This document shows positions 11,805 through 17,402 of a DNA stretch of 64,000 bases, one piece after another. The DNA comes from Arcanobacterium pinnipediorum (GTDB taxonomy: Bacteria > Actinomycetota > Actinomycetes > Actinomycetales > Actinomycetaceae): the NCBI RefSeq assembly GCF_023973165.1, contig NZ_CP099547.1, positions 1,612,001 through 1,676,000 of the forward strand, in the 5' to 3' direction. Under the pieces are notes generated by a model that was not told where the DNA came from, did not search any database, and worked only from the letters and a program-made list of their open reading frames with translations. Position 1 is the first letter of the stretch; the number at the start of each line of letters is the position of its first letter. Position numbers and translations under genes: made by a program.

Positions 11805-12248
11805 CTATGTAGTGATTGGATGTTGCCGGTAATAGTTAGCGATATTTTCCTTGGTGATAAGCACGTTACATGATTCAGCCGGACCTAATTCGCCACGTGC
11901 ATCCTTCCACGGTTGCTCTTCATGAGTGCGGTAACTCAGATCCCTTCCAGAGAGATCCCCTAGGGTTGCATACACATAGTCAATGATCGCAATTTGCTCA
12001 TCACTAAGTTCATCACCGCAAGGTGGAATATCTTCTTGAGAGACGAAAAAATTTCCGCGATGCAATCGATATAAATCTACAGCTACCGGACCTGCACGCC
12101 AGGCTTGAAAATCAGAATCAAAAAGCGGGAGACCTGTTGTCGATAACGCATGAGCCTGCGAGTAAAATACAAGCTTTTGCAACTTCATGGTAGAAAGAGA
12201 CCTCTTCTTGGAAAGAATGTGCCGTGCAACATTGTTAATACTTACCAT
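11805..12248 (-). CDS. Panacea-domain (DUF4065) antitoxin-like protein
   Basis: A 147-residue protein made almost entirely of a Panacea domain (DUF4065/GepA-like). Family signatures are MKLQKLVFYSQAHALSTTGLPLFDSDFQAWRAGPV in two parts (the LQKLxYYxQ helix and the FxAWxxGPV motif), then DELSDEQIAIIDYVYATLG. Panacea proteins are promiscuous antitoxins that neutralise many toxin types, including small alarmone synthetase toxins (toxSAS). It starts after a strong AAGGAGG. It is divergent from a RelA/SpoT-domain gene whose 5' part is broken, a plausible toxin partner, although the usual arrangement is co-directional. Confidence 0.85.
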   Translation of the reverse strand: MVSINNVARHILSKKRSLSTMKLQKLVFYSQAHALSTTGLPLFDSDFQAWRAGPVAVDLYRLHRGNFFVSQEDIPPCGDELSDEQIAIIDYVYATLGDLSGRDLSYRTHEEQPWKDARGELGPAESCNVLITKENIANYYRQHPITT

Positions 12249-12316
12249 ATTCGCCTCCTTAAACCAGTATTAGTATTCATCTACTATAAGTACAAATGTA
12301 CCCAGTTGATAATGTT
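12249..12316. promoter_or_regulatory. Divergent promoter region of the Panacea / RelA-SpoT pair
   Basis: This 68-bp A+T-rich spacer separates the two divergent genes. It contains TATAAG-like and TAATAC-like -10 candidates on opposite strands and a GTAC-N4-GTAC inverted repeat centred near 12296. Autoregulation by the antitoxin would fit, but no operator can be assigned from one sequence. Confidence 0.35.
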
Positions 12317-12477
12317 ATGTTCAATACTTCAGTTTCTCGTTCTACCGCTAAGAAGAAGAACAAAGTTCTGAAAGATAAGAGTATCCCCCCGGTGATCCTG
12401 CTTTTGAAGCGATATCAGTCGTGTAACGTTGGCGCAACCAATGTGTACCTGTAACGCAAGAGTGCTTTCGTATCGTC
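12317..12477 (+). pseudogene. Disrupted N-terminal part of the RelA/SpoT-domain gene
   Basis: The frame starting at 12317 (MFNTSVSRSTAKKKNKVLKD...) has the look of a toxSAS N-terminus. It runs into a six-C tract at 12385-12390. Restoring a seventh C joins it to the frame of the downstream gene (GDPAFEAISVV), which then meets TAA at 12424-12426. Immediately after that stop comes RWRNQCVPVTQECF, the conserved WR..H-type segment that precedes the synthetase core. The gene therefore carries one frameshift and one stop relative to an intact ancestor. Confidence 0.7.
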
Positions 12478-13377
12478 ATGGAATGCGCGCAGGAACTTCA
12501 GGGAGCTGTCGCAACTTTTCGGATGAAACGCGTAAAATCTATAGTTCATAAGATTCAGCGTCCACACGGCAATTTTGAATTAAGCACATTAGACGACGTG
12601 GGCGGCTGCCGTTTAATTGTTAATTCTCTCGAAGACGCTGAAAAGGCGAAGAAATTCTTAGTAAAACAGCTTAATATTACAGATCCAAGGCAGACTAAAG
12701 ATTATATTGAAAAGCCTAAACCAGACGGCTACCGTTCCTGCCATCTGCTAACACGCCGTGAAAGCAACGGTACGAAATATCGTGTGGAAATCCAGATAAG
12801 AACCAAACTTCAACACTACTGGGCCACTGCTATCGAAGTTTTTGATGAACTGTATGGAACGTCAATCAAGAGTCCAAATAATACTGAAGCAGGTCACGAA
12901 GAAGCTCCTAAAGACCTTCCGGAATCTCTTGCTATCGTTTCGCAGTTGTTCACCTTGGAAGAAGACCTTTCGGCCGGTGACAAAGTCCCTAAGTCAAAGG
13001 AAGAACTTTTACAAGAGCTCGCCACAATGGCTAAATTCCGATCTGCCATTGACGATATGGAAGATGCGTGTAGTGACGTTCTTGAAAGTGCAGACGAGAA
13101 TAAAGTGGATTCTTCGATCTTCATTTTATCTTTTTCAAAGGACGATCAATTTCTTTCAGTACAGCCCTACACATCCGAGCAATTGGATAAAGCTTTGGAA
13201 ACTTACGCCCAGCTAGAACAAGACATCGAATCAAATGGGCACTCACCTACTAACGTTGTTCTCGTTCACGCAAAAGGCATGCAGGAATTGCGACTGGCAT
13301 ACCCTAACTACTCAGCGAATGCACCAGATTTTATTAAAAAAGTAAGACAGTATTTTGCTCTCGCCGAGAAATTTTAG
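12478..13377 (+). CDS. RelA/SpoT synthetase-domain protein, toxSAS-like, 5'-disrupted
   Basis: A 299-residue open frame containing a (p)ppGpp-synthetase-type nucleotidyltransferase core. Key blocks are FRMKRVKSIVHKIQRP, LDDVGGCRLIV (Mg-binding DxxGxR region), KPKPDGYRSCHLL and VEIQIRTKLQHYWATAIEV. There is no HD hydrolase, TGS or ACT domain, so it is a small alarmone synthetase-like protein. Those encoded beside Panacea antitoxins act as toxins (toxSAS), some by pyrophosphorylating the tRNA CCA end. The C-terminal ~150 residues are not recognised. Homologous sequence continues upstream of this ATG but is broken, so the product, if made, lacks about 50 N-terminal residues and may be inactive. 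No good Shine-Dalgarno sequence precedes 12478. Confidence 0.8.
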   Translation: MECAQELQGAVATFRMKRVKSIVHKIQRPHGNFELSTLDDVGGCRLIVNSLEDAEKAKKFLVKQLNITDPRQTKDYIEKPKPDGYRSCHLLTRRESNGTKYRVEIQIRTKLQHYWATAIEVFDELYGTSIKSPNNTEAGHEEAPKDLPESLAIVSQLFTLEEDLSAGDKVPKSKEELLQELATMAKFRSAIDDMEDACSDVLESADENKVDSSIFILSFSKDDQFLSVQPYTSEQLDKALETYAQLEQDIESNGHSPTNVVLVHAKGMQELRLAYPNYSANAPDFIKKVRQYFALAEKF

Positions 13378-13607: not shown

Positions 13608-13961
13608 TTACAGCTCATCATATTTCTTCGAAGTCCCTCGCGCCTTATGGACAGGATATTTTACAGAGTTCTTCAACATCTTTGATCGGATAATACTCGG
13701 AATATCGAACTGCATATCATCAGCAAGCATAAAAGCGTAAATTAAAACATCCGCAAGCTCATCAGCTATCTCTTCCCGCTTCTCAATTGCTGCTACATCT
13801 GAGGGCAACCATTGAAAACACTCCAATAATTCAGCAGATTCTATCGAAATAGAAACTGCTAAATTCTTCTCAGAATGAAACTCACGCCAATTTCTTTCAT
13901 CACGGAAAACATTTAATGCTGAAATAATTGTCTCCAACGTGTTCTTATCTTCCATAATCAT
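13608..13961 (-). CDS. MazG-like nucleotide pyrophosphohydrolase
   Basis: A 117-residue all-alpha NTP pyrophosphohydrolase of the MazG-like/dCTPase type. Metal-binding acidic motifs are visible: SIESAELLECFQW (ExxE) and EEIADELADVLIYAFMLADD (ExxxD). Such enzymes cleave (d)NTPs to monophosphates and PPi. The ATG overlaps the stop of the upstream helicase gene by four bases, and a second ATG at 13955 has better spacing from AAGGA. Obligate coupling to a GIY-YIG/DUF2075 protein suggests a joint function, possibly in phage defence or nucleotide signalling. Confidence 0.82.
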   Translation of the reverse strand: MIMEDKNTLETIISALNVFRDERNWREFHSEKNLAVSISIESAELLECFQWLPSDVAAIEKREEIADELADVLIYAFMLADDMQFDIPSIIRSKMLKNSVKYPVHKARGTSKKYDEL

Positions 13962-15751
13962 TCCTTGTTTGACGATGATGTAGCGTTTTGTAATGCCCTA
14001 CGCAACTCTTTATCTACTGCATAAATGTAGAGCCCATTCACTCCTCGGGTTAAAAGAACATTCAGCTCATTTCTTAAAAGTTCTTCGGCGACTGAGCGTT
14101 TGGAATTATCACTCATTGTCCTGCGCTTCTTAGCATTTGTATTGCAACTTGATGTCTCATCAAAAATAATATGCCCATCACGATACTTTACTGATTCCCC
14201 AATGATCACTCCTGCATAATTCAAATCAAAACCCTGAATGGTGAAAATCGAACCAACTTCGTTAATGGTTTGCTCTTGTTCTGCCCAAGATAAACCTTTA
14301 TTACGCTTCCGGAGTTCCCTACTCTCTGCAGATTTACTAGTCCGCTTAATTTCACGATTCCATGGCAGCGACCAATCGCCGATTGTAACATCCCATGTCT
14401 TACCATTTTCTGGAGATCTACTTGCGCTATACGCCCAGTCATATGTGGCCAATAATCTAGATAAACCATGTTCAACACTACTTGCTTTCATCGAGATCGC
14501 ACTATGGAGCTCTCTTGGATCATCAAAAATTCTGATCTCATATTCTCCAGTATCATCTGGGCATGGTTCAACAATGCCCTTATCGATAATTGATCGGACC
14601 CACTTAATAACTTGCACCGGCGCATCCATGCGCATTTGATTTTTTAAATGAATAACCGTGGAAGTATTACGTTTAAGCCATTCTCCGTACACTGAATCTG
14701 CATATTGGTTAAAAGCCAAAATCTGTTTTTCATCATATACTGCAATGACAACACGTGCACGTTCCAGCAAGTCAGCAAGCTGATTTTTACCTTGATAGCT
14801 CATTTTACCTTGGGTCAACAATAGATGAGCTTCATCAACCAATATCACATCTGCTTTGTCGCTAACACTACGCTTGTTAATAAAGATCGTGGGTTTGGTT
14901 ACTGTAATATTACTCCCCGAGTTCAAACCCAGTTTTTCAGCGATTTGCTGATATACCAGCAATTGTTCATCATGGTTGACAAGCATAATAACTTCAGCAT
15001 CGGAAGGATTTACGATCGAGCCGAGAACAGTTTCTTGGCTATCTGTCCGGAACTGCGACAACTCGTAGAATAAGTTACTAAGTAAAACAGTTTTACCCGA
15101 ACCAGCTTCTCCAGAAACAAGTATCAACTGCCCCGTCTTATCATTATGGAGAGCTTGGATCGCCGAATCATATATTTTACGTTTAGCATCAACCTGTTCA
15201 TCTGTCAGTTTATGAAACGGCGAAGCCTTGAACATAGCCGAATCTCTAATTACTCTCTCAATTGGGAAAAGAGCACTGTTTTGTTTACGTAATTCTCTCC
15301 AAATCTGATGGAAAATTTCGTCAAATTGCTCCTGCGTATAGTACTGGCGTTGTGGATTCGATCGACCGTTGTAAAGTCGCTGAATCTGCGGAGCGCCAAG
15401 AAGCCATGACATTAATCTATTTTCGACATCTAGTGTCAACGATTTATTGAATAGCGTATTTCCAATTACATGCAATGTCGCATCTGCTTTTTTAACTTCT
15501 GAATGCCAGTTATCCAATGCATATTGGTTAGGATCTAAATGCTGTTTTGTTCGGCTTTGTATATCGTTCGTCTCCCCGATATACACACTAAATTTTCCTG
15601 CCTTTTCATGCTCGATGACGTAAACTGCAGGATAATCGAATAAATATTTTTCGAGACTTTCCTTCAAATCACTACTATCGATTTGTGCATGAATATTCTC
15701 AATAGCTTCATCTGTGAACGGAACAGATTGTATGTATGTTCGTGGTCTCAT
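13958..15751 (-). CDS. GIY-YIG nuclease fused to a DUF2075-type helicase/ATPase
   Basis: About 597 residues. The N-terminal GIY-YIG endonuclease-like domain (about 40-110) shows YPAVYVIEHEKAGKFSVYIGETNDIQSRTKQH in pieces: the VYVI strand, VYIGET, and the DIxxRxxQH helix. The DUF2075 superfamily-1-like ATPase follows: Walker A GEAGSGKT near 214-221, Walker B VDEAH near 305-309, the KNQMRMDAPV motif near 365, and the C-terminal NVLLTRGVNGLYIY motif. An open frame continues upstream to a TTG at 15793. The ATG at 15751 (or 15763) fits the family N-terminus better. The domain pair suggests DNA or RNA cutting driven by a motor. Coupling with MazG (ATGA overlap) and the accessory setting point to defence, which is inference. 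Confidence 0.8.
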   Translation of the reverse strand: MRPRTYIQSVPFTDEAIENIHAQIDSSDLKESLEKYLFDYPAVYVIEHEKAGKFSVYIGETNDIQSRTKQHLDPNQYALDNWHSEVKKADATLHVIGNTLFNKSLTLDVENRLMSWLLGAPQIQRLYNGRSNPQRQYYTQEQFDEIFHQIWRELRKQNSALFPIERVIRDSAMFKASPFHKLTDEQVDAKRKIYDSAIQALHNDKTGQLILVSGEAGSGKTVLLSNLFYELSQFRTDSQETVLGSIVNPSDAEVIMLVNHDEQLLVYQQIAEKLGLNSGSNITVTKPTIFINKRSVSDKADVILVDEAHLLLTQGKMSYQGKNQLADLLERARVVIAVYDEKQILAFNQYADSVYGEWLKRNTSTVIHLKNQMRMDAPVQVIKWVRSIIDKGIVEPCPDDTGEYEIRIFDDPRELHSAISMKASSVEHGLSRLLATYDWAYSASRSPENGKTWDVTIGDWSLPWNREIKRTSKSAESRELRKRNKGLSWAEQEQTINEVGSIFTIQGFDLNYAGVIIGESVKYRDGHIIFDETSSCNTNAKKRRTMSDNSKRSVAEELLRNELNVLLTRGVNGLYIYAVDKELRRALQNATSSSNKE

Positions 15752-16007
15752 TCTTCTACCCATCAAAAGCTGTTGCAATGGAGCAAGAATCAAAGATTAG
15801 ACCCGTAATGAAGTCTTCTAGATTACCTTTCCAAGCACCTTTCCTATATTTCATTTTCGAAGATTGCCTGCTTTTTTACCACCACTAAGACTCGTTTGCG
15901 TCTGGTTTTATATCACAAAAGTTACATCGATACCTTGTTCTACCGTTGAACTGCTCAGAACATGCTTGCTTAGTGTTTGCGCATCTGGATTCCTTCGGTC
16001 GTGCTGA

Positions 16008-16334: not shown

Positions 16335-17402
16335 TTACTCAGGAAGTTTCGCCTCAAATAGTAGATCCAAGTATTGCCTATTGATGAACAACACATTCCG
16401 GCCCACCTTATGCCGCTCTAATACACCAAGCTCGACAAGTTTTTCAGCATGCTTGCCCGCGGTAGGACGACTGATATTCAGCTCCTGCGTCAAATCTGAG
16501 AACCGCAAATACGGCTTTAAAAACAACACATGAGCAAAATCGCGAGCCGGCATACCTCCGTCATGTAGCACGCGAATAGTATCTTCAATCTGGTTCCGAA
16601 TAGAATAAATAATATTGCTTGTCCACTGTGAGGTCACCGCAACAGCATCAAGCATAAACAGCACCCACGGAATCCATTCATTTTTCTGCGTCACGTTGTT
16701 CAACAAACGATAGTACTCATCCTTATGCTGAACAATATATCCGGAAAGATAGGTAATCGGCTGACGAAGCAAACCCTCATGAACCAAATAAAGCACGTTA
16801 AGAATTCTGCCAGTTCGCCCATTACCATCCGAAAATGGGTGAATCGCTTCAAACTGATAATGCAAGAGAGCCAGCTTAACTAGCGGATCCAACGACGTAT
16901 CATCATGAAGAAACGATTCCCACTTCGAAAGATGATCAAGAATCACATCTTTCCCTTCAGGCGGCGTATAGATACGTTCTTTCGTAGTCGGATTACCAAT
17001 ATATGTACCGGCGTTCGACCGAATATCCATCTCAAACCCAATAACTGTTGAACACACTAATTTAGCCGTATTGACTGCTAACGGGCGCTCGCGAATCACA
17101 TCGAATCCGCGATAGAGAGCGTGGGAATAACGAAGCGCCTCGCGCGTTGCCCCTGAAGGAGTCTCGATGCGATGGGCTGCGCGAAATAGTTCTTCATTCG
17201 TCGTCACGATATTTTCAATTTCATTCGATGCGCGCGCTTCTAGCAGCGGAATAGAATGAATGAGAATATCTGGATTAGGTATCAGTTCTGCTGCCGCATC
17301 GGCTCTCGCTAAATACCGAGCAGCCTTAACCAAGGCGCGAGCAACTTCTGCAGTTTCGATACCTTCAGGCGGTAGCGGTGGCAGGTTTTGAAAGGACTTC
17401 AT
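16335..17402 (-). CDS. Fic family protein with C-terminal winged helix
   Basis: A 355-residue Fic protein. The active-site motif HPFSDGNGRTGR is at residues 188-199, so catalytic His and the nucleotide-binding Gly/Arg residues are all present. The inhibitory helix motif SNEIEN ([S/T]xxxE[G/N]) lies at 59-64, N-terminal to the Fic core, as in class II autoinhibited Fic proteins. The C-terminal region (about 285-345) is a winged helix with SDLTQELNISRPTAGKHAEK as the recognition unit. Fic enzymes usually AMPylate proteins; the target is unknown. The wHTH plus flanking palindromes suggest it may bind its own promoter. Start ATG at 17402; the promoter region holds element copy 2. Confidence 0.88.
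   Translation of the reverse strand: MKSFQNLPPLPPEGIETAEVARALVKAARYLARADAAAELIPNPDILIHSIPLLEARASNEIENIVTTNEELFRAAHRIETPSGATREALRYSHALYRGFDVIRERPLAVNTAKLVCSTVIGFEMDIRSNAGTYIGNPTTKERIYTPPEGKDVILDHLSKWESFLHDDTSLDPLVKLALLHYQFEAIHPFSDGNGRTGRILNVLYLVHEGLLRQPITYLSGYIVQHKDEYYRLLNNVTQKNEWIPWVLFMLDAVAVTSQWTSNIIYSIRNQIEDTIRVLHDGGMPARDFAHVLFLKPYLRFSDLTQELNISRPTAGKHAEKLVELGVLERHKVGRNVLFINRQYLDLLFEAKLPE

Follow-up and report, generated by a model that had tools for sequence, protein, structure and literature searches.

CapRel SJ46 has been described as a fused toxin-antitoxin and phage sensor, with adenine-binding arginines R79 and R116 and a G-loop tyrosine, Y155 (PMC9712102; PDB 7ztb), and a mechanism involving the YXXY motif is set out in PMC11782079. 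Type II toxin-antitoxin systems are generally described as bicistronic operons (PMC10440598). Here we examine a pair of genes in a 64,000-nucleotide (nt) stretch of the genome of Arcanobacterium pinnipediorum (contig NZ_CP099547.1, positions 1,612,001 to 1,676,000; hereafter "the window"), the source genome being a single contig of 1,952,277 bases. The pair consists of a CapRel-like toxSAS gene, coding for a putative alarmone-synthetase toxin, and a gene for a Panacea (PanA) antitoxin. We conclude that the toxSAS gene most likely underwent a recent inactivation in this lineage of Arcanobacterium, and that the locus preserves what is left of a head-to-head pair of the PanA-CapRel type.

Results

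An original prediction, made from this DNA alone, had pointed to a run of six cytosines (C6) at 12385-12390 and a TAA codon at 12424 within the conserved N-terminal part of the toxin, and both are present. When the first 80 residues of the toxSAS protein of the sister species A. buesumense (P0002) were used as a tblastn query, residues 1-32 matched 12296-12391 in frame +2 (33.9 bits) and residues 32-80 matched 12385-12531 in frame +1 (71.2 bits), with the stop at 12424 inside the second piece. Both pieces combined gave an E value of 2.6e-20, the next matches of that query in the window being at ~20 bits, and the A. phocae protein (P0003) was split into the identical two pieces (E 3.1e-21), bearing out the claim that the conserved N-terminus is interrupted upstream of the open frame. 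With N-terminal queries from eight relatives, the downstream piece was the best match of all eight; the upstream piece stood out with the queries from the two closest relatives, was weaker with P0004 (E 5e-4), and with the other five was not significant or not among the matches listed. Conserved sequence does lie in the region from 12317, where the gene had been proposed to begin, although the start that matches intact copies is the ATG at 12296, 21 nt further upstream. Counted from this ATG, the spacing between the panA and toxSAS starts is 47 nt, as it is in A. buesumense. The first in-frame start codon 3' of the TAA is at 12478. Because of the frame change and the TAA at 12424, no full-length open toxSAS frame with a complete N-terminal part exists in the window, and by its sequence the gene is a remnant of the CapRel family rather than a working member. 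The features are collected in Table 1.

Table 1. Features of the PanA-toxSAS locus, in window coordinates
Feature	Position	Strand	Remarks
panA antitoxin gene, SocA_Panacea PF13274, 147 amino acids (aa)	11805..12248	-	Open from start to stop; strong Shine-Dalgarno (SD) sequence AGGAGG; GPV motif
Intergenic region between divergent starts, 47 nt	12249..12295	.	SD for panA; -10-like box near toxSAS start; no SD for toxSAS
5' remnant of toxSAS (CapRel-like) gene	12296..12454	+	ATG 12296, 52 codons, stop 12452-12454; first ~32 codons match residues 1-32 of intact sister protein
Interval of conserved-frame change, includes C6 tract 12385-12390	12385..12400	+	
In-frame TAA within conserved N-terminal segment	12424..12426	+	Glutamine at the same place in P0002, P0003 and P0004
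Remaining toxSAS open frame, 299 codons	12478..13377	+	toxSYNTH domain (PF04607) and pseudo-zinc-finger region with YXXY motif

What remains of the toxin is CapRel-like, as judged from its sequence. The RelA_SpoT synthetase domain PF04607 is recognised in the 299-aa frame with an E value of 8.2e-22 (78.1 bits against a cut-off of 27), and R79, R116 and the G-loop Y155 of CapRel align to R15, R45 and Y85 of this frame, residues that are invariant in 49 aligned sequences (chosen from 117 database matches, short and near-duplicate ones being left out). Further to that, AYPNYS at 274-279, containing YXXY at 275-278, aligns to Y352/Y355 of CapRel. The AlphaFold2 model of the 299 residues is confident (predicted local distance difference test, pLDDT, 88.1; predicted template modelling score, pTM, 0.86), and its best match among solved structures is CapRel (PDB 7ztb), which it matches from end to end, as far as the C-terminus, with 25% identity. 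In the same 49-sequence alignment the N-terminal segment contains a nearly invariant W-R, which has been lost from the remaining frame.

The partner of the toxSAS gene is a divergent gene for a predicted Panacea antitoxin (PF13274, E 8.4e-19). The two genes stand head to head on opposite strands. Using a threshold of E 1e-20 or better, toxSAS relatives were found in 12 of 213 genomes of the window's family, at 13 places, and in 20 of 189 genomes of a second family (that of G252), where 23 rows represent 21 genes (G703 and G620 each being in two pieces). The second family is probably Bifidobacteriaceae, judging by the similarity of its genes to proteins named Bifidobacterium and Gardnerella. 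PanA was found at 30 of the 34 related loci in the two families when a flank of 1.5 kb, shorter at contig ends, was searched, and it always diverged head to head from the toxin gene; the gap between starts is 107-167 nt at some of these 30 loci. A bicistronic operon on one strand was thus found at none of the 30. Since its genes diverge on opposite strands, we class the window pair by its predicted proteins as PanA-CapRel, and not as an operon-type system.

Related toxSAS genes are mostly intact, only four of 34 being broken within sequence: that of the window; G559 (L092), where the 3' part is lost and PanA is split too; G703 (L111), with two frame changes and no PanA in its short flank; and G070 (L043), which has lost the 5' part and has no PanA in the flank. 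No PanA was found in the fetched flanks of G493 and G515, nor in those of G261 and G283, whose toxSAS matches belong to another family. A separate observation is that G017 (L028; same genus as G374) carries a PanA 48% identical to that of the window, with no toxSAS match in that genome.

The place is conserved as well as the pair. In A. buesumense an intact pair sits at the corresponding place, where the outer genes on either side are those also found in the window, and the toxSAS protein of G006, from the same genus, is 100% identical to P0002. The nearest neighbours of the pair in the window are a GNAT gene, a MazG-like gene and a Schlafen-type helicase, and in G006 a putative type I restriction set, recognised by eye. 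A scan of genome contigs with P0002 returned only two distant matches. The main text of a paper on A. phocae (PMC8235330) does not contain the terms toxin-antitoxin, pseudogene, phase variation or defense.

Discussion

The locus thus carries at least two lesions near the 5' end of toxSAS, namely a frame change at ~12385-12400 and a nonsense codon at 12424, beside a panA gene that is open throughout, in agreement with the earlier suggestion that the toxin was inactivated while its antitoxin stayed intact. The intact ancestor would have encoded a CapRel-like toxSAS of ~360 aa, which, by analogy with its family, may have pyrophosphorylated tRNA ends upon sensing a phage protein and may have been restrained by its own pseudo-zinc-finger region together with PanA. 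A ribosome starting at 12296 would now translate 52 codons before reaching a stop, and since the catalytic part beyond lacks both an SD sequence and a leaderless start, little or no toxin would be expected. The antitoxin gene panA is still open and may now have no partner. Rather than a switch, the break most likely represents a recent gene loss of an ordinary kind.

Several observations weigh against a dead gene. None of 48 residues invariant in 12 relatives is altered in the downstream frame, which runs for 316 codons without a further stop or frame change. Positions where the window alone departs number 0 of 45 at strictly conserved and two of 85 at mostly conserved columns. None of 12 relative-rate comparisons shows the window with significantly more changes, and in two of them, both against A. 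phocae, the window had fewer (p 0.02 and 0.03). Both lesions lie within the first 131 of 1082 nt (chance ~0.015, calculated post hoc), as would be expected if the remainder were still under selection. Only a single isolate is known. The absence of decay in the downstream frame fits either a very recent break or a retained protein.

The best of the alternatives, though we consider it unlikely, is that translation and selection continue on the 12478-13377 frame, whose product would be a CapRel-like protein shortened at its N-terminus, acting in sensing or as a decoy or regulator with PanA. The undecayed frame and the 5' confinement of the lesions speak for it, as do the retained catalytic R15, R45 and Y85, the retained YXXY, and the confident structural model, although such a model of a fragment is no proof that it folds. 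However, no SD sequence or -10-like box was found before 12478, 12523 or 12598, and the nearly invariant W-R is gone. It had been stated at the outset that homologues naturally starting at the position of 12478, which corresponds to residue 63 of P0002, would refute the reading of a broken gene; among the 34 related genes in two families, no unbroken one has a match clearly starting only there. The match begins upstream of residue 63 in all of them except the 5'-truncated G070, G620 being split by contig ends and G493 ambiguous, as its match starts at residue 59 in one search and at 72 in another. Short proteins exist in the database, as protein records only: P0022 (296 aa) starts near the MKR start of P0001, and P0095 and P0096 are also short. 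A more elaborate version, in which selection keeps the 299-codon frame as a shortened CapRel that no longer fires as a full toxSAS and binds PanA or the phage trigger as decoy or regulator, and in which the leaderless 52-codon frame governs its translation by re-initiation, appears somewhat less probable still.

An error of sequencing or assembly, the gene being whole in the living strain, is improbable. A homopolymer does adjoin the frame change and there is one assembly only, but the two lesions differ in kind, the stop has the look of a substitution and not of a homopolymer error, and window and relative do not differ in length by a single base. As a control, 321 open reading frames (ORFs) of the sister genome were taken, of which 81 were matched and 21 of these set aside for low identity or coverage, leaving 60 to be compared with their counterparts in 464 kb of the genome. 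Ten of the 60 were flagged: toxSAS, one inside the 23S rRNA, and eight with stops only in the first 6-27 residues. For these eight it seems, by eye, that the sister ORF start was placed too early, although some similarity continues before the stop in L059 and L060. None of the other 58 sister-matched protein ORFs was broken beyond the first 27 residues. On the other side, the control flagged toxSAS by its stop and not by its frame change, which means that short displaced ends elsewhere would be missed, and more than a quarter of the matched ORFs (21/81) had been set aside.

Slippage in the C6 tract, giving a phase-variable toxin or programmed frameshifting, is almost certainly not the explanation and was rejected: the tract sits where the two frames meet, but the TAA at 12424 lies beyond it, so that no slip would give a full protein, and at the matching place the intact sister copy lacks a C run. 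The tract is also short and of a kind not enriched here, C6 occurring three times in the window, where dinucleotide shuffles average 19; in the whole genome there are four C tracts of at least eight, the longest being of 11. One more C had been proposed to keep the frame; the length difference between window and sister at the frame change is not a single base. For this reason, and with no C run in the sister, neither the site nor the cause of the change of frame within 12385-12400 can be put down to the run.

Sequence divergence was compared for both genes in maximum-likelihood trees of 27 loci, from which broken, partial and duplicate loci, those without PanA, and L112 (G598), an unbroken divergent pair, had been dropped. 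The window's branch measures 0.603 for PanA, against 0.085 for the sister, and 0.322 against 0.203 for the toxin body. PanA changes in window and sister number 14 vs 5 (twice, p 0.06) and 14 vs 10 with single outgroups, 7 vs 0 with two outgroups (p 0.016) and 3 vs 0 with four, and one of 43 residues invariant in seven others is altered in the window's PanA. Against the consensus of 15 others (10 further near-identical rows being dropped from the tree set) there was no significant difference (6 vs 3, 2 vs 0 and 0 vs 0). We do not claim relaxed constraint on the window's PanA, its long branch not being significant at conserved columns.

The start regions of the pair suggest that in the PanA-CapRel clade the toxin mRNA is leaderless and that of the antitoxin leadered, because panA mostly has an SD sequence while toxSAS mostly lacks one and has a -10-like box just before its start. 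In a survey of head-to-head loci (L037, L040 and L084-L115), an SD core lies 3-13 nt before the panA start in 23 of 30 loci, and before the toxSAS start in four of 30, all in the long-gap group L101-L104. At 21 of 30 loci the toxSAS start is preceded at 3-11 nt by a TANNNT box, where shuffling the upstream bases would lead one to expect 8.6. Many of these loci are close relatives, making the effective number smaller, and the rows for L040 and L097 were obtained with a simple rule for choosing starts, which probably failed in these two cases. In the window, TACTAT stands 8 nt before the toxSAS start at 12296, with no SD. In the parts of the literature that we consulted, no report was found of a leaderless toxin mRNA in head-to-head Panacea-toxSAS pairs, including those of Bifidobacterium. 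An antitoxin with a ribosome-binding site facing an apparently leaderless toxin offers a testable idea of how antitoxin excess may arise without an operon.

Near the pair, a small defence-like region is formed by the Schlafen helicase and MazG-like genes and a Fic protein. The 611-aa product of 13958-15793 (- strand), beside the MazG-like gene, combines GIY-YIG with a Schlafen-group-3 helicase and has partial matches to the Nhi and AbiO defence profiles. A SoFic-type Fic protein, with a strong PADLOC match, is encoded at 16335-17402 (- strand).

Comparison with known systems

Toxins of the CapRel type usually come with a protective partner and probably act against phages. The window would illustrate the loss of a defence-type toxin at a conserved chromosomal place while the antitoxin gene persists, the intact sister copy allowing comparison, within a head-to-head layout that spans the family of Arcanobacterium and a second one, probably Bifidobacteriaceae. 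In PADLOC, the frame matches the profile of the candidate defence family PDC-S33 (E 3.7e-77), the first 62 profile positions being absent from the window frame. Like CapRel SJ46, it has a toxSYNTH domain with equivalents of R79, R116 and Y155, a pseudo-zinc-finger region and a YXXY motif; unlike CapRel SJ46, to which it is 25% identical, it lacks ~61 N-terminal residues and has PanA as an additional neighbour. In PanA-CapRel of Vibrio harveyi, as described in PMC8832971, a Panacea antitoxin with a GPV motif adjoins a CapRel-subfamily toxSAS just as in the window, where, in contrast to that system, the toxin is broken.
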